Shown here one piece after another: positions 15,367 through 24,179 of a stretch of 55,029 bases of DNA. Source of the DNA: Sulfobacillus sp. (lineage in GTDB: Bacteria > Bacillota > Sulfobacillia > Sulfobacillales > Sulfobacillaceae). The stretch covers positions 1 to 55,029 of the forward strand of contig DAIDDL010000027.1 of NCBI GenBank assembly GCA_027309085.1. The letters run 5' to 3'. The notes under the pieces are model-generated. The model saw only the letters and a list, made by a program, of their open reading frames with translations, was not told the DNA's origin and did not search any database. A program made the position numbers and the translations under genes. Positions within the stretch are counted from its first letter, which is position 1. Each line of letters opens with the position of its first letter.

Positions 15367-16736
15367 TATAGTGGACCCCATTGTCAAGACAGATTTTTAT
15401 ATGCTTAAGTGTGACGACTGTTCCTCCTTTGCTTGGTCTGATTTTACCCTCTCACTCACGAGTAGCGTCGGCATCCGCAGGAGCCGGACGCTACTCGTGA
15501 GGCCTCTTGAAAGTATGGGGCGAGAGATCTCGCGCCAGGGGGGTGCGCTCGGCGGTCCCTCGGCACTGATACTGCTCGGCCGGCGTTCGGTAGCCTAATG
15601 CCTGGTGGGGGCGATCATAGTTGTACAGCTGGAAGTAGCGATCCAACCCTTGGCGGGCCTCCCGCGGCGAGAGATAATCGTGCCAGTAGACTTCCTCGTA
15701 CTTGACGGACCGCCAGAGCCGTTCGGTGAAGATATTGTCGAACGCCCGCCCGCGATGATCCATGCTGATTTGCACCCCCTTGTCCCGGAAGAGCGCCGTG
15801 TAGGTTGGACTCGTAAAATGGCTGCCTTGGTCATGATTCCAGAGGGTCGGGACGGCCAGAGACAGCACCCGCTTCGCGGCCGTCAGGACAAACGGCAATT
15901 CCAACGACTCGGACAGCTCCCACGCCACCACATAACGGGAATACCAATCGATCACGGCCACCAAATAGAGCCATCCAGGGTGCAGCCTTATATAGGTAAT
16001 GTCGATTCCCCACACGTGATTGGGGTAGGCGGCCGTGATATCCTTCAATAAATACGGATAGACGGGATGCTCCGGGTGGGGAGTGCTGGTCTGGAGTCCC
16101 GGCGCGAGGCCCCAGATCCCCATCTCGCGCATATAGTGCTGGATGCGTTTGCGATTGACCGCATACCCTTCGCGTTGCAACTGGGCGGTCATCCGCCGTG
16201 ATCCGTAGAAGGGGCGATCCGTGTAAATTGCGTCGATCCGGTGTTTGAGCGCCACCTCGACCGGCTTCGGCCCGGTGGGCCGGTAATAGAGGCTCGTACG
16301 GTTCAGGCTCAAGAGATCCGTCTGCACCGTCAGCGGCAGCGCCTCGGGGCCAGAATCTAACAACCGCGTGCGCTCACCGCGAGACAGGGTCGAGGCCAGA
16401 TTTTTTTTGAGCCACTCGACCTGGGTGGTGAGCTTGCCAATGTGGGCATACAGCTCTGTAATCTCCTGGTCGTGGGCCGGGGCTTGCTGTTTCAGCGTCT
16501 CCGATTCGGTGAAAAGCTGGGCGAAGTTGTCGAGTGCCTGACGCTTCCATCGATGCAACTGCCCCGGATGAATTTGATGCGCAGCGGCAATTTGGGAGAC
16601 CGTTCTTTCCTCTTTCAGCATCTCCAGCACGACTTGCGCTTTGAACGTCGCAGAATGACGTGTTTGCTTCGGCATAATGTGTTCAGTGTAACACTTAAGG
16701 CCATCTAAATTTGTCTAGTTTCTGGGGACCACTATA
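15367..16736 (-). mobile_element. Complete IS3-family insertion sequence (1370 bp)
   Basis: Imperfect terminal inverted repeats of about 46 bp flank the transposase. The left end begins TATAGTGGACCCC and contains AAGTGT about 45 bp in; the right end read inward begins TATAGTGGTCCCC with the same AAGTGT. The bases GGC occur directly outside both ends (15364-15366 and 16737-16739), a 3-bp target duplication typical of the IS3 family. The single transposase frame is intact, so the element may still be mobile. Confidence 0.9.
15491..16675 (-). CDS. IS3-family transposase, OrfA and OrfB in one frame
   Basis: The first ~100 residues are the OrfA part: a helix-turn-helix (TVSQIAAAHQIHPGQLHRWK) and a leucine-zipper-like coiled coil (about 60-95). 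The rest is the OrfB part with an IS150-like HTH_21 segment and an rve integrase core. The catalytic triad is D225 (GIDITY), D282 (NHDQGSHF) and E318 (FTERLWRS), with the 35-residue D-E spacing of the family. Most IS3 elements make this protein by programmed frameshifting; here it is one continuous 394-aa frame, and I see no sign that slippage is needed. Confidence 0.92.
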   Translation of the reverse strand: MPKQTRHSATFKAQVVLEMLKEERTVSQIAAAHQIHPGQLHRWKRQALDNFAQLFTESETLKQQAPAHDQEITELYAHIGKLTTQVEWLKKNLASTLSRGERTRLLDSGPEALPLTVQTDLLSLNRTSLYYRPTGPKPVEVALKHRIDAIYTDRPFYGSRRMTAQLQREGYAVNRKRIQHYMREMGIWGLAPGLQTSTPHPEHPVYPYLLKDITAAYPNHVWGIDITYIRLHPGWLYLVAVIDWYSRYVVAWELSESLELPFVLTAAKRVLSLAVPTLWNHDQGSHFTSPTYTALFRDKGVQISMDHRGRAFDNIFTERLWRSVKYEEVYWHDYLSPREARQGLDRYFQLYNYDRPHQALGYRTPAEQYQCRGTAERTPLARDLSPHTFKRPHE

Positions 16737-17513: not shown

Positions 17514-17611
17514 CTAAAGACACGTCTCGGGCTTGAAATGTCCCTTTGGCGCACGGTACATCCGTTTTCCGGACCGCATGTTATATTAAAGCGAATAGGG
17601 GAGGTGCCTTA

Positions 17612-17947
17612 ATGGACCGCGCAACGATTCTCAAAGACTATGTCCAAAAGCTGGTGGCAGCGGGGCACCCGGAAGCCATTGTGCTTTTTGGGTCGGAAGC
17701 GGGCCACGCCGCGAATAACGACAGCGACTTCGATTTCCTGGTCATCGAACGGAATGCGGACATCCGTAGGCAGCGGGGAATCAAATACCAAATGGCTCTC
17801 AGGCCACGAGTCATTGCAGCCGACATTTTGGTGCCCACGTCCGAAGAGCTTACCAAGGCGGTATCCGAAGGACATCCCGTGATTCAAGAAATTCTTCAGA
17901 AGGGACGTTGGGTGTATGGCGAATCCCGTACCTTCCGGCCTTCTTGA
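17612..17947 (+). CDS. MNT-domain nucleotidyltransferase, antitoxin of a HEPN/MNT pair
   Basis: The 111-aa protein has the minimal nucleotidyltransferase signature: IVLFGSEAGHAANNDSDFDF, with GS followed by S-D-x-D. Such MNT proteins are antitoxins that inactivate HEPN ribonuclease toxins by adding nucleotides near the HEPN active site. The frame is open further upstream, but GGGGAGG lies before the ATG at 17612, so that start is used. The usual loop reads GSxA-R-G in the family; here Glu precedes Ala and no Arg follows, a mild deviation. The partner toxin overlaps its 3' end by 32 bp and is broken. Confidence 0.8.
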   Translation: MDRATILKDYVQKLVAAGHPEAIVLFGSEAGHAANNDSDFDFLVIERNADIRRQRGIKYQMALRPRVIAADILVPTSEELTKAVSEGHPVIQEILQKGRWVYGESRTFRPS

Positions 17948-18324
17948 TTTAGCGACGGCGGACATGGATGCCGCCCACCGACTGACCGTTCCAGGTATTT
18001 ACCATAGCGTGTTATCACGCTCACCAAGCCGCCGAGAAGGCTTTGAAGGCGGTGTTGTTACACGAAATCAAAACCTTTCCGAAGACGCACGACTTGAGTT
18101 GATTGGTCGATGCCATCCGCGTCTCTCAGACCACGTTTCCGGACTTTGCGTTAGAATCGGCTGTCCTAAATGAGTACGTTGTGGATATGCGCTACGAACC
18201 CGAAGTGCTAACTGATGTCGACATGGACGAAGCCGAAGCGGCTATTGGTTATGCCGAAACGATTCTGAATCATGCGCGTCAGTTTTTTGGGGAATCGAAT
18301 GCACCACAAACCACCGCGCCCTAG
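17916..18324 (+). pseudogene. Broken HEPN-domain toxin (PF05168-like)
   Basis: The first frame reads LLDLATADMDAAHRL...GIYHSV. After a +1 shift near 18009 the sequence goes on as CYHAHQAAEKALKAVLLHEI and KTFPKTHDLS, then meets TGA at 18100-18102 and continues in the same frame as LVDAIRVSQTTFPDF to 18324. These pieces together match the HEPN family: QAAEKALKA is its hallmark, and T-H-D-L lies at the usual later place. One frameshift and one stop codon therefore disable the toxin while its MNT antitoxin stays open. The original start at 17916 overlaps the antitoxin gene. Confidence 0.75.
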
Positions 18325-18839: not shown

Positions 18840-19490
18840 TCACGCGGTAAATCGGCAACGGCGGGATGCGGCGGCGAAAGTCGCGCACGGCGCGGAGCAG
18901 AGTGCGCCAGACCACGTCATGGTGTTCCAACCCCCCCAATGGCCCAAGCGCCACAACGCATGCGTGCGATAATTTTTCATCGTATTCGCTTGCCACTGGC
19001 GGGCTTTGCCCGCGGTTTCCATAGCCCACCCGGCGACATTCCACCAATAATACGCCCACGCAAAGACCAGGAGCATCCGATCCCACCGTTCCGGAGTGCT
19101 CAGGGTCACGGCATCCAGATGAAATCCTTCATACTGATCATTCTTCTGATCTTTAAAGCATTCTTCGGTGGTAAACCGTTGGCCATACGCCGCGACGAGG
19201 CGTCCCGGCTCCCACGGCGTCAACCCTGCCGACACTGCGAGATCCCAGGGATCGGGATAGCCTGGTTCCGCGTACACGATAACACGGCACGGGTAGGCAT
19301 CTTTCCCATAACGACGCCCATAGCGCACGGCGGGCAAATCCTTCAATACCGGACGATCGAGAGCCCGGTACCCCTCCCTCAGACGATCTTTCGGATCATT
19401 TGAGACGATCATGCCACAAATCAGCCGCGGCGTCCAGCCCCCGCCCACAAATTTTTCGGGATTTTGGGCTCGGCGGTACGAAATGCTCAT
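18840..19490 (-). pseudogene. IS4-type transposase, C-terminal fragment
   Basis: The 216-codon frame includes YGQRFTTEECFKDQK, the Y-x2-R-x3-E-x6-K signature that holds the catalytic glutamate of IS4-type DDE transposases. The N-terminal part with the two catalytic aspartates is not present upstream (to the right), and no terminal repeats were found, so this is a truncated remnant. The last ~25 codons may already be shifted or non-homologous (ARG/SER/CYS-rich end). Confidence 0.75.
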
Positions 19491-19808
19491 CAGTAATTAC
19501 GGGTCCTGAGGATCACCGTGAAGGTGAATCCCCACAGAACCCAGAAATACAACAGACATAAGGGTTTCCACGATTATGGCTTGAGTGCTGTCACGGATTC
19601 AGGTCGAAGATTAAAGGCAACCATCCACATCATCCCCATTGTGTTGGTGCAGACATGAGCAGTTTCCCCAGCACCATTCTCTACACCATGATGCGGGTTC
19701 TCACATAGCTCTTGGATATTTGTGTCCCGGTAGAGCTCAGGTCCCTAATTGATGGAACAAATTATGATATACTTCTTTTACTTTATTTCAGGATAGGAGG
19801 TGACCTCT
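19491..19808 (+). other. Upstream region of the leader peptide and MFS gene
   Basis: No gene is seen. The end is A+T-rich (AATTATGATATACTTC near 19760-19775) and could hold the promoter, though no well-spaced -35/-10 pair stands out. AGGAGG at 19795-19800 is the ribosome binding site of the leader frame. Confidence 0.4.
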
Positions 19809-20013
19809 ATGATCTTTTTGTCCAGCTACCTGGCCTTGCCTTTTGACCAAGGGCATGGCGCATCACACACCAAGGGAGTAGTTTGTCCAATTCCAGGTGT
19901 GTGTTCGCCCCAGTCCACAGAGGTCATCCGCGCCGCCTAAGCGGCCATCTTATGGCTCCTCTTGATGACATGGTCCCGGGTGAACCCACCTGAGACCTTG
20001 TCATCATTGGAGG
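19801..20013 (+). promoter_or_regulatory. Structured leader RNA, candidate attenuator of the MFS gene
   Basis: Four pairings are visible. TGACCTCT (19801-19808, directly before the leader ATG) can pair with AGAGGTCA (19919-19926) near the leader end. CACACACC (19864-19871) can pair with GGTGTGTG (19896-19903). GCCAT-ctt-ATGGC follows the leader stop. GATGACA..GGTC (from 19964) can pair with GACC..TGTCATC (to 20005) with one mismatch, right before the MFS ribosome binding site GGAGG at 20009-20013. A ribosome moving through or stalling in the leader would change these pairings. Confidence 0.5.
19809..19940 (+). CDS. Leader peptide (43 aa) upstream of the MFS transporter
   Basis: AGGAGG at 19795-19800 lies at good spacing before an ATG that opens a 43-codon frame ending TAA at 19938-19940. 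The peptide begins MIFLSSYLALPFDQGHG and ends STEVIRAA; it has no domain. It lies 85 bp before the MFS start, in a transcript rich in hairpins. Short translated leaders ahead of antibiotic efflux genes commonly control them by ribosome stalling or attenuation, so a regulatory role is likely. Translation is supported by the ribosome binding site alone. Confidence 0.55.
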   Translation: MIFLSSYLALPFDQGHGASHTKGVVCPIPGVCSPQSTEVIRAA

Positions 20014-20025
20014 TTGTCACAAGTT

Positions 20026-21246
20026 ATGAAATCCACCACCCATCCCCGCCCCTACCTCGTTTATTATGCCTATACGGGCCTCTGGTCTTTTAACGCCACC
20101 AGCGGCTTGTGGATCCTCTACCTGCTGCACTGCCACTGGACTCTCTTTGAAGTAGGTCTAGCAGAATCAGGATTTCATATCATCTCATTCCTGGCAAATG
20201 TCCCCACCGGTGCGGTAGCCGACAGATTTGGCCGCCGCACCAGCATTGCTGCGGGCCTTGGCATCGGCTCCGTGATGCCGCTCGCCACATTCCTGCTGGC
20301 TCCCGTCAGCGTGCCATGGGGAATTCTCAGCATATCTCTGGGAGCGCTCAGTTGGACATTTATTGGCGGGGCGGATGAGGCCCTGCTTTATGACCTGGCC
20401 AAAGCAGAAGGACAGTCGGGCCACTATGCCGATATTTACGGGCGTGCCATGGGTCTTTCCCTAAGTTCGCAGGCAGCAGCCATAGCATTGGGCGGTCTTC
20501 TGGCCGCATCGGGGCAATGGCTCTGGCCTTACGCGCTCACTATGGCCACTTCATTTCTGGCGTTGTTTGCGGTATGGCGTTTGCAGCCAGGCACAAGAAT
20601 TTTACCTCCCGGCGCACCCAGAAAACACAGCCTCACCGCCACGATGCGCCAGGGCCTTCAACTAGCCAGGTCGGATCGGCGCATCATGGGTCTAGTGGCA
20701 CTTGGCGCCGTCATCGACACCATCGCCACCACAAGCGGACTCTATGCTCAAGCCATGCTGAAACACAAAGGTGCGGCGCTTATCATCATTACCGCCGTTC
20801 TGAGCGCCAGCACGCTGCTCGCAGCCGCTAGCAGCGTGCTCGGCGGACGGCTGGCCCGGCGCCACCGGCGCCGCCGCTTCTCCTCACAACTGGCGCTATA
20901 CGGCACGGCTCTAGCCTCAATCGGTCTCTTCCCGCTCACCGGCGCCGCCAGCGCATATCTCTCGAGTATAGCCATAGACAGCAGCATGACCCCGCTTTAT
21001 GAGACACTTCTGGCTGAAGCGGCTCCAGATGATTACAGGGCCACCATCTTGTCGTTAACTGACACAGGATTCAGTCTCGGCATGATCCTATTCTTTCCCT
21101 TCACAGGTTATCTGATGGGGCGGGGCTTGTGGATAGAGTTCTACATTCTGAGCGGTCTGATTCCCATGGCAGTTGCCTTGCGGATTTGGGCAGGCGGTTG
21201 GAAATCAGAGGCCACCAAAACGCATCCGCCGCATAACGCCAATTAA
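20026..21246 (+). CDS. MFS-family transporter, probable drug efflux
   Basis: The 406-aa protein has about 12 hydrophobic segments. The loop between helices 2 and 3 reads GAVADRFGRRTS, the MFS signature (G-x3-D-x2-G-R-R). The frame is open to a TTG at 20014, but that codon directly abuts GGAGG, so the ATG at 20026 (12 bases from GGAGG) is preferred. Overall it resembles small MFS proteins of the multidrug or macrolide export type; the substrate cannot be told. Its leader peptide and RNA hairpins suggest inducible expression. A 14-bp hairpin follows the gene. Confidence 0.85.
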   Translation: MKSTTHPRPYLVYYAYTGLWSFNATSGLWILYLLHCHWTLFEVGLAESGFHIISFLANVPTGAVADRFGRRTSIAAGLGIGSVMPLATFLLAPVSVPWGILSISLGALSWTFIGGADEALLYDLAKAEGQSGHYADIYGRAMGLSLSSQAAAIALGGLLAASGQWLWPYALTMATSFLALFAVWRLQPGTRILPPGAPRKHSLTATMRQGLQLARSDRRIMGLVALGAVIDTIATTSGLYAQAMLKHKGAALIIITAVLSASTLLAAASSVLGGRLARRHRRRRFSSQLALYGTALASIGLFPLTGAASAYLSSIAIDSSMTPLYETLLAEAAPDDYRATILSLTDTGFSLGMILFFPFTGYLMGRGLWIEFYILSGLIPMAVALRIWAGGWKSEATKTHPPHNAN

Positions 21247-21750: not shown

Positions 21751-22731
21751 ATGACCAACATACGCCGCAACCCTAGGGGAACGCCCTTTTGGTATGGGGG
21801 CCGATCGTTCACCGAGGCCGAGATCGAAACCATTCGTCGCATCACCGATGACCCGTGGTGCACCACTCAGGGTGCCATTGCGCGGGCGGTGTGTGCGGCG
21901 CTCGATTGGACCATGACCAATGGCCAACCGAAGTGAGCGACCTGCCGCAAAGCCCTGCAACAGATGGAAGAGCATGGGGTCATTTGGCTGCCTTTACCGA
22001 CCCAGGAATCCCGTGGCACTCTCCCTGAGGCGACGTGGACCGCCGCTTCGGATCCGCAAGAGCTCCTCACGGGCTCTCGGGGCGACTTCCCCGATCTCCA
22101 GTGGCAGTTAGTGGAACCGGGCAGTGCGTCGGCCCGCGTATGGGGCGAACTCGTCCGGCGGTATCATCCCTTGCACAATGCGCACATGGTGGGGCCGCAA
22201 CTCCGGTATCTCGCGGTCGTGCACGACCGCATTGTCGCCTGCTTGGGCTTTGGATCGGCCGCACTCAAGTTAGCGGCTCGGGACCAATGGATTGGGTGGA
22301 CGCCCGCAGAACGGACAGCTCATTTGTCCCAGGTAGTGGGCAATCGTCGATTTCTCGTGTTGCCGTGGGTGCAGATCCACGGCTTAGCCTCGAGTTTCTT
22401 GGCGGGCGTCGCCCGCCGGTTGCCGGCGGATTGGGCCCGCCGCTATGACGAACACCCCGTGCTCTTGGAAACGTTTGTTGAGCATGCGCGCTATGCGGGC
22501 ACGGCCTATGCGGCCGCCAATTGGCATAAAATTGGGCGCAGTACAGGGCAGGGCCGCCTCGCGCGCCCGCATGCGGCCGCGCAACCCGTGCGAGACATCT
22601 GGGTATATCCGCTGCGACCCGACTTCCGGGCCGCCTTAACGGATGGGCGGCGCATCGACCCGATCGCCCCAGGCGGCTCCCGAACGCCTGCCCCCGCCGC
22701 ACCACCCAAGAAAGGAGCATCACGACGATGA
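21751..22731 (+). pseudogene. DUF4338 (DruA-like) protein with an internal stop codon
   Basis: One frame runs from an ATG at 21751 to 22731, broken only by TGA at 21934-21936. Before it lies a winged-helix-like N-terminus (FTEAEIETIRRI, then WTMTNGQPK). After it come CRKALQQMEEHGVIWLPLP and the DUF4338 core: VGPQLRYLAVVHDRIVACLG, ARDQWIGW, FLVLPWVQIHGLAS, PVLLETFVE, GTAYAAANW, DIWVYPL. DUF4338 occurs as a passenger in ISKra4-type elements and in DruA of the Druantia defence system. The stop codon overlaps the next start as ATGA, so the pair is coupled. An ATG at 21964 could give a protein lacking the N-terminal domain. Confidence 0.75.
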
Positions 22732-24179
22732 CACCGGTTCAGACTCTGCCAGAGGGAGGCCCTACGGCTTTTCACAGCACCTGGGAGCGCATGGACACGT
22801 TGCTGACCTTTGCCGGCAGCGCCGAAGCCCAGGCCCTCACGCATGCCGCCTTGGAAGTCGAGGTCCAGTGCCGCGGGCGCGAGGTGCTCCGGCAGCTGAT
22901 GGCCGACCATTTCGCCCTGCGGGCGAAGGAGGAAGTGCGTCACGCCCAAGTGGTGGATGCCCAGGGGATCCCCCATACGACTCACGAGGACGACCACACG
23001 CGGCCCTTGGTTACCATCTTTGGCTCCATCCCGGTGAGTCGGGTGGCCTATCGCCATAAAGGGACGACCAATCTGTATCCCGCCGACCTCGTCGCCAACC
23101 TGCCCTCGGAAAGTTATTCCCATGGCCTTCGCGAAATCGCCGCCCGCGCCGCTCTCCAGGACTCGTTTGACTCCACCGTCGGCACCATCGCCCAGCAGAC
23201 GGGGCAACGGCTGGGCAAACGGCAGGTCGAACAACTGGTCGGCAAGGCGGCCAAGGATGTGGACGGCAAAGGGATCGTGATGCGACGGGAAGGCCTGCGC
23301 CCGAGCACGGCCAAAGTGGGAAAGGCGGGGCACAAACTCCAGACCCGGTTATCGTCCGGCGAGAAACGCGGGCGCAAACGCATGGCGGAGGTCGGCTCCG
23401 TGTATGGGGTGACCCCGGTGGTCCGCACGCCCCCCGATATTCTCTCACCCCAATCGGCTGATTCTCAGGCCTCCAAGACGCCGGGGCCGACGGCCCAGGA
23501 TAAATGGTTGACCGCCAGCGTCGTCGACGATGCCCGCTCCGTCATTCGGACGGTCATGCACGAAGCCGAACGGCGCGATCCGCACCATGATCGCCCCTGG
23601 CTCGGCCTGGTCGATGGCAACAATGATCAGTTGCGGCATCTGCACACCGAGGCGCGTCAGCGCCACATTGATCTCCCGCTGTTCATCGATTTCATCCATG
23701 TACTGGAGTATCTATGGAAAGCCGCCTGGTGCTTTTTTGCGGCGGGGGACCCCCAAGCCGAAGCGTGGGTCTTGCACCACGGTCTGGCCATTTTGCACGG
23801 GAAGTCGTCCGTGGTGGCCGGAGCGATTCGTCGCAAGGCCCCCACCAACCACCTGACGAAGGACCAGCGCCAGGCAGCGGATCGGTGTGCGGACTATCTC
23901 CTCCATAAACGCGCCTATTTAGACTACCCGACGGCATTGGCGCAAGGCTGGCCGATTGCGACCGGGATCACCCCGGGCGCCTGTCGCCATCTGGTGAAAG
24001 ATCGATTCGATATCACGGGAGCCCGGTGGGGTCTCGCCGGAGCCGAGGCGATTTTGAAACTCCGCGCCGTCTGGAGTAATGGCGACTGGACGGCGTATTG
24101 GGCGTACCACCTGGCCCAGGAACAACAACGGGTACACCGGGAGCGCTATGCCCCCGGCTCGTTTCCCGCAGTCGCCTAA
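22728..24179 (+). CDS. ISKra4-family transposase
   Basis: The 483-aa protein resembles ISKra4-family transposases: an N-terminal region rich in helices, a middle segment (RVAYRHKGTTNLYPADL, then SYSHGLREIAARAALQDSFD) typical of this family, and a DDE-type core with LGLVDGNNDQ and FIDFIHVLEYLWKAAW. Three acidic residues of the catalytic set are likely D in VDGNND, D in FIDF and a later E, but I cannot fix the last with certainty. AAAGGAG precedes the ATG, which overlaps the upstream stop by ATGA. The frame appears intact. Terminal repeats were not found. Confidence 0.8.
   Translation: MTPVQTLPEGGPTAFHSTWERMDTLLTFAGSAEAQALTHAALEVEVQCRGREVLRQLMADHFALRAKEEVRHAQVVDAQGIPHTTHEDDHTRPLVTIFGSIPVSRVAYRHKGTTNLYPADLVANLPSESYSHGLREIAARAALQDSFDSTVGTIAQQTGQRLGKRQVEQLVGKAAKDVDGKGIVMRREGLRPSTAKVGKAGHKLQTRLSSGEKRGRKRMAEVGSVYGVTPVVRTPPDILSPQSADSQASKTPGPTAQDKWLTASVVDDARSVIRTVMHEAERRDPHHDRPWLGLVDGNNDQLRHLHTEARQRHIDLPLFIDFIHVLEYLWKAAWCFFAAGDPQAEAWVLHHGLAILHGKSSVVAGAIRRKAPTNHLTKDQRQAADRCADYLLHKRAYLDYPTALAQGWPIATGITPGACRHLVKDRFDITGARWGLAGAEAILKLRAVWSNGDWTAYWAYHLAQEQQRVHRERYAPGSFPAVA

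Follow-up and report, generated by a model that had tools for sequence, protein, structure and literature searches.

The window, by which we mean the whole stretch of 55,029 nucleotides analysed here, comes from a Sulfobacillus species whose draft genome measures 4.49 Mb and lists it as contig 92; the features described below lie on its plus strand unless stated otherwise. At 20026..21246 it carries an MFS transporter gene (ATG 20026, 406 codons) whose product matches Pfam MFS_1 with E 4e-24. The best NCBIfam model for the protein is TIGR00900 (H+ antiporter, E 2.5e-10), with 40 bits against a cut-off of 320; we take this model to be linked to Mef, that is, to DHA3/Mef-like drug exporters. The SD sequence of the gene (SD2, GGAGG at 20009..20013) is separated from the ATG by 12 nt, a long spacing, and is paired in the OFF-state fold. 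Since an IS3-like transposase gene (HTH_21, rve) lies at 15491-16675 on the minus strand and transposase-like frames, neither with a Pfam match, lie at 18840-19490 (minus) and 22728-24179 (plus), the surroundings of the pump look IS-rich. A plasmid search gave no match. At 17546-18324 a nucleotidyltransferase (Polbeta) gene is followed by frames resembling a frameshifted HEPN partner, possibly a decayed HEPN/MNT pair, and a DruA-domain frame lies 3' of the pump (21964-22731, plus; Pfam E 1e-36).

Upstream of the pump is a short open reading frame, uORF1 (19809..19940), of 43 codons plus a stop with the translation MIFLSSYLALPFDQGHGASHTKGVVCPIPGVCSPQSTEVIRAA, in which PFDQGH occupies codons 11-16 and KGVVCP codons 22-27. 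Its SD sequence (SD1, AGGAGG at 19795..19800), read from the sequence, has GGAGG-like counterparts in relatives; its ATG (19809) stands 8 nt past GGAGG, and 85 nt separate its TAA stop (19938-19940) from the MFS ATG at 20026. The initial annotation had described just this frame, with its perfect AGGAGG and its distance to the transporter, and all of it is present. The probable extended -10 element TGATATACT (19765..19773) was recognised in the sequence, and a transcription start near 19780 is predicted; a promoter consensus scan of the window does not list it, and of 30 leaders 17 have a -10-like hexamer at about this distance, as against 6 of 30 control stretches.

The leader has a minimum free energy of -106.1 kcal/mol, compared with -78.3 ± 4.9 for 200 dinucleotide shuffles (z -5.66), none of which is as low. 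Its first helix, P1, joins TGACCTCT (19801..19808), directly 5' of the uORF start, to AGAGGTCA (19919..19926), on the evidence of folding, complementarity and the swap test described below. Segment 1, CACACACC (19864..19871), is the 5' arm of P2, and segment 2, CAGGTGTGTGTTCGCCCC (19894..19911), contains its 3' arm and serves also as the antiterminator strand; both were found from inverted repeats, folding and the swap test. Within segment 2, GGTGTGTG (19896-19903) pairs with segment 1, giving a helix, 1:2, that is P2 and encloses the P3 hairpin GGGAGTAGTTTGTCC (19874..19888). P3 has the conserved core GGGNNNN(G/C)TNTGYCC and the H16 codon has its first base 20 nt upstream of the hairpin's start. 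Further 3' is the P5 stem (19963..20006; folding, inverted repeat, swap test), whose two 20-nt arms (19963-19982 and 19987-20006) are 85% complementary. P5 lies immediately 5' of GGAGG at 20009-20013 and, when extended by 19955-19962, reaches the MFS ribosome binding site (RBS). Its apex, GGGTGAACCCACCTG (19978..19992), is segment 3, the predicted ON-state partner of segment 2; the inverted-repeat list contains both 19864-19871 / 19896-19903 (1:2) and 19894-19902 / 19984-19992 (part of 2:3). P5 is without a U-tract in the window, where we found no intrinsic terminator. Rfam has no family above the gathering score for the leader; its microRNA matches on P5 are far below that score, and we set them aside as chance matches to a hairpin.

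Conservation of the leader and its peptide

MFS homologs of about 39-57% identity are found across the order and the class, and we read 24 of their leaders; among the named relatives that share the leader are Sulfobacillus benefaciens and S. harzensis. All 24 have a GGAGG-like SD sequence 7-9 nt before the start codon, together with the uORF and P3. The start of the uORF lies about 175-217 nt before that of the MFS gene (155 nt in one leader), and a clear downstream P5 hairpin is present in all leaders read except the g12 group (L010-L013, L029) and L014. In most relatives, among them L003, L008, L009, L018 and L102, P5 is an intrinsic terminator with a U-tract, and most relatives are predicted to combine transcription termination with RBS sequestration. 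The initial annotation had suggested comparing orthologous leaders, and both the leader frame and the stems prove to be conserved. The leader is absent upstream of the homologs L012, L078, L081-L083 and L084-L089. L006 has ACG at the position of the uORF start codon in a leader that is otherwise intact. Several MFS homologs (L007, L018, L015/L028, L016/L027) contain an in-frame TGA, or come in two pieces or on two contigs, so that a leader may at times outlive its pump.

In the window's own family the peptide has the consensus [L/F]P[FY]DQGH.....KGxVCPF..LG. Four leader peptides found no match in NCBIfam, the window peptide found none in Pfam, and uORF1 differs in sequence from the known leader peptides of the vmlR, erm, mef and RLR families (MIN, the RLR motif and others), in agreement with the earlier remark that it resembles none known. 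The PxDQGH and KGxVCP motifs are conserved in MFS and ABC-F leaders alike, with variation greatest at third codon positions: for PxDQGH in 13 leaders, the entropy at codon positions 1, 2 and 3 is 0.23, 0.35 and 0.87. In these leaders the P, D and G codons change synonymously with the amino acid mostly kept, and therefore the peptide is under selection. For KGxVCP we rejected a purely peptide motif. Third-position variation in the PxDQGH group supports it, but an RNA-level constraint is needed too, since the same RNA is found past the uORF stop (L076/L077) or in another frame (L010-L013, L029, L079, L080). In L010, L011, L013 and L029 the uORF ends with Pro-stop (CCC or CCG, then TAA) about 90 nt after its start, and from exactly that point a KGxVCP-like frame runs on in +1; inefficient termination or a frameshift could be at work there. 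A programmed +1 frameshift at CCC-TAA (L010, L011, L029) is not favoured, L013 having CCG-TAA and early-stop uORFs occurring elsewhere.

The distance from the uORF to P3 is kept too. Class I leaders have the first base of a conserved His (or Tyr/Phe) codon exactly 20 nt before the start of P3, and the g12 group has it 21 nt before, whether that codon is number 15, 16, 25 or 28; outside the 22-codon class, 19 of 26 leaders have His exactly 20-21 nt before P3. In the 22-codon uORFs (L076, L077, L108, L110, L114, L117, L014) 16-18 nt separate the last sense codon from P3, a spacing at which a ribosome with a stop codon in its A site usually has its front edge. A third group, of 12-14 codons (L118, L119, L124, L127), has its last sense codon about as far from P3; in L127 a count along the sequence gives about 15 nt. 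Because three different peptides share nearly one distance, we infer that an arrested ribosome would abut P3 and cover segment 1.

Genes behind the element and the nature of the signal

A covariance model built from MFS leaders only (R1) and searched in 154 genomes of the class gave matches in 25 of them, and these include sites upstream of ABC-F genes in 6 genomes and of a TGS GTPase gene. The element lies about 200 nt before the ABC-F genes of L102, L109, L111, L115 and L116, with a weaker case further off (L118), and it precedes a TGS-domain, Obg-like GTPase gene in L117 and, by similarity, L114. A second covariance model (R2) added the ABC-F-like cases L119, L124 and L127; in 398 genomes of the phylum it gave no match beyond the class. 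For all six ABC-F proteins, whose frames are cut by the locus end, the best model is NF000355 (ribosomal protection-like), with 303-352 bits against a cut-off of 380; for one of them the nearest solved structure is that of ExpZ/VmlR (6ha8). Since ABC-F proteins, an MFS pump and a ribosome-associated GTPase share the element, its gene content suggests that the signal is a ribosome-targeting drug.

Could the uORF codons instead sense a metabolite, an amino acid or a charged tRNA, with the MFS protein exporting the metabolite? Codon-specific sensing would fit the codon usage of the motif, where CAA and CAT are used nearly without exception while the genes behind use CAC and CAG freely, and where the H codon is invariably CAT in the 13 PxDQGH leaders, versus about equal use of CAC in the downstream genes. 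However, no amino acid is repeated in a run in the uORF, the chassis is common to uORF classes whose peptides differ, and the genes behind the element encode ABC-F ribosome protection proteins and a GTPase rather than biosynthetic enzymes, so that we consider such a sensor improbable and prefer the drug as signal.

P3 itself invites another reading, in which a second uORF, overlapping the first, would open there (AAGGG as SD, then NTG) and control P5 through its translation. Almost all leaders do have AAGGG or GGGGG followed within a few nucleotides by NTG, and in the window TTG 19883 in P3, with AAGGGAG before it, opens a 36-codon frame (19883-19993) that ends in the P5 apex. The NTG codon recurs at the same place of P3 in nearly all relatives, but its first base may be A, C, G or T and is often C, the frame ranges from 2 codons (L007, L013) to an overlap with the MFS gene, and L003 has no NTG at P3. 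We regard this as a weak proposal with little chance of being right.

Two partners for segment 2 and the proposed switch

To avoid alignment artefacts, each helix was assessed by a swap test, in which the duplex energy of each strand with its own partner is compared by permutation with that for the partners of other leaders; as the leaders are related, the p values that follow are indicative rather than exact. Segment 2 pairs with its own P5 apex at -21.4 kcal/mol versus -16.1 for swapped apices (p 2e-5, 14 leaders), whereas three control segments against the same apex give p 0.56, 0.95 and 0.59. The value is still 2e-5 when five ABC-F and GTPase leaders are added, and the window 2:3 has the best cognate energy in its row and column of the swap matrix. 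Compensating changes in 2:3 are seen in L018 (UGGGUAUC/GGUACCCA), L008 (GGGUGUC/GGCACCC) and L038 (UGUGCCCG/CGGGCACA). P2, the 1:2 helix, also passes (p 1e-4), as do the lower stem of P5 with SD2 (p 5e-5) and P1 (p 3e-4; control p 0.41). Two conserved partners, each excluding the other, are therefore available to segment 2, a hallmark of attenuation. Covariation computed column by column on alignments A2 and A3 was uninformative, with P2 weak on a fitted alignment, because the register of the helices varies between leaders; best-helix z-scores computed leader by leader are mostly non-significant singly.

These results bear directly on the initial annotation, which had proposed ribosome-mediated attenuation from two pairings, one between TGACCTCT and AGAGGTCA and one stem set against the transporter's RBS. 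Both pairings are confirmed, as P1 and P5, and conservation and the swap tests support attenuation as such. The decisive pairing is, however, 2:3, which together with 1:2 is added to the earlier description. We rejected TGACCTCT/AGAGGTCA as the main switch: P1 is conserved and spans the region where the uORF itself begins, but it is no competitor of P5.

Folding of growing transcripts, with and without a ribosome on the leader as the annotation had also proposed, gives 2:3 in the window only with the ribosome at codon 16. Without a ribosome 1:2 forms and 2:3 never does; with the P site at H16, the minimum energy fold contains 8-15 bp of 2:3 while the 3' end lies at 19985 to 20000; and a ribosome placed at the stop codon leaves only P5 to form. 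Of 18 leaders from relatives, 17 have at least 8 bp of 2:3 in the stalled state. L079 and L080 form 2:3 without a ribosome as well, and L015 and L038 do so to some degree; L006 shows no preference between the states and L016 little 2:3. For 3' ends beyond 20000, P5 is more stable than 2:3 even with the ribosome stalled at H16, and the switch must therefore work kinetically, like other attenuators. This is harder to defend in the window, since its copy is without a U-tract, and the weakest point of the model is that the ON state of the window must last until a ribosome loads on SD2.

The mechanism that we propose is as follows. Transcription would start near 19780 and a ribosome would begin uORF1. 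In the unstressed cell the ribosome would run to the stop codon, or none would be present and 1:2 (with P1) would form; in either case segment 2 could not reach segment 3, and P5 would form, hiding the MFS RBS and in most relatives terminating transcription too. A ribosome-targeting drug would halt the ribosome no more than one or two codons from the PFDQGH motif (codon 16). Once arrested, the ribosome would cover segment 1, segment 2 would pair with the emerging segment 3, P5 would be pre-empted, and the efflux pump would be made. The leader is thus, in our judgement, very probably a ribosome-mediated attenuator in which a drug-arrested ribosome at codon 16 turns on an efflux pump; most likely the conserved uORF and hairpin switch would let a stalled ribosome turn on a drug pump, and the element is probably an undescribed sensor of ribosome-blocking antibiotics. 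The sequence analysis shows the uORF, its conservation, the helices, the covariation of 2:3 versus P5, the fixed motif-P3 distance and the gene association, and it is from these that we infer the arrest at codon 16, the drug signal and switching in vivo. The window copy, having no terminator U-tract, probably works by translation attenuation.

The missing U-tract, unlike the terminators of most relatives, and the lower stability of 2:3 than of P5 at full length would also be expected of a relict, a structured spacer whose regulation was lost in the window genome as the terminator decayed. We think this quite unlikely, as nothing is damaged in SD1, the peptide motif, P2, the P3 spacing, 2:3 or the stem that sequesters the RBS, and the window 2:3 outperforms every swapped partner. 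Least likely of all is a riboswitch that binds a ligand through P2/P3 as its aptamer, with an incidental uORF: the P3 core is indeed conserved as RNA even outside the uORF (L076, L077, L118, L127), but the start codon and SD are kept at 7-9 nt spacing, the motif codons vary at third positions, the uORF motif or stop codon stands at a fixed distance from P3, and Rfam has no match.

Relation to known attenuators

The proposed attenuator has known parallels. In Bacillus subtilis a three-codon uORF (MIN) controls the ABC-F gene vmlR, and its drugs stall initiating ribosomes (PMC9226507). The logic is shared, with a uORF in the anti-antiterminator, an antiterminator with an apical hairpin, an intrinsic terminator and an RBS-sequestering hairpin (PMC9226507), and an ABC-F gene behind a related element here has VmlR/ExpZ as its nearest solved structure; however, our uORF has 43 codons with PxDQGH, its main target is an MFS pump, and we found no shared sequence family. 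Ribosome-mediated transcription attenuation likewise controls the drug export genes of bmrB-bmrCD (PMC4191407) and mef(E)/mel (PMC4335068), with other leader peptides. BmrCD is an ABC exporter, and mef/mel couples an MFS pump with an ABC-F protein (PMC4335068), whereas here MFS and ABC-F genes have separate copies of the element. In Listeria, rli80-hflXr is likewise a uORF attenuator before a ribosome-associated GTPase (PMC6310831), and the organism concerned makes the ABC-F protein Lmo0919 only when lincomycin is present (PMC6310831); its peptide is a 14-aa RLR peptide, however, and the GTPase here is Obg-like with a TGS domain, not HflX. Closest to the terminator-less window copy are the ErmC-type leaders, in which a stalled ribosome frees the downstream RBS by a change from 1:2/3:4 to 2:3. 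As in that type, the MFS RBS of the window is sequestered in the OFF fold, by folding and swap test; peptide, target gene and the extra P1 and P3 elements differ.

A literature search found no paper describing this leader, and no published work on inducible leaders in acidophilic Sulfobacillus-like bacteria. Since no matching sequence family, Rfam model or paper was found, we call the leader an undescribed attenuator family with known mechanistic logic, which adds a conserved leader peptide and a conserved RNA hairpin in these acidophiles. Moreover, an MFS pump, ABC-F proteins and a TGS GTPase all stand behind this one switch, which therefore marks genes of obscure function as a likely ribosome-protection regulon.

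A broader reading, which we offer as a conjecture with somewhat less than even prospects, is that the element is a class-wide modular RNA chassis for antibiotic sensing. A constant P2/P3/P5 frame would then accept three or more uORF types unrelated to each other (PxDQGH, about 43 codons; ML.I..K.G[LC]-stop, 22 codons; ...VCA[VL]R[AS]-stop, 12-14 codons), each placing its motif or stop codon about 15-20 nt before P3. Sitting where the stalled ribosome has its front edge, the conserved hairpin P3 (AAGGGNNNNGTNTGCCCTTTT) would hold ribosome and RNA polymerase or keep them in step. If this is true, pumps, ABC-F proteins and a GTPase would receive signals of different ribosome blocks from different uORFs. 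As natural uORF sensors on one frame, the leaders could also reveal nascent-chain contexts arrested by different ribosome inhibitors. One further, element-like leader with P3 and a strong hairpin (L128, G135:C144; R2 E 0.005) adds a possible case with an ABC exporter, as the gene behind it encodes an ATPase of the ABC exporter type.
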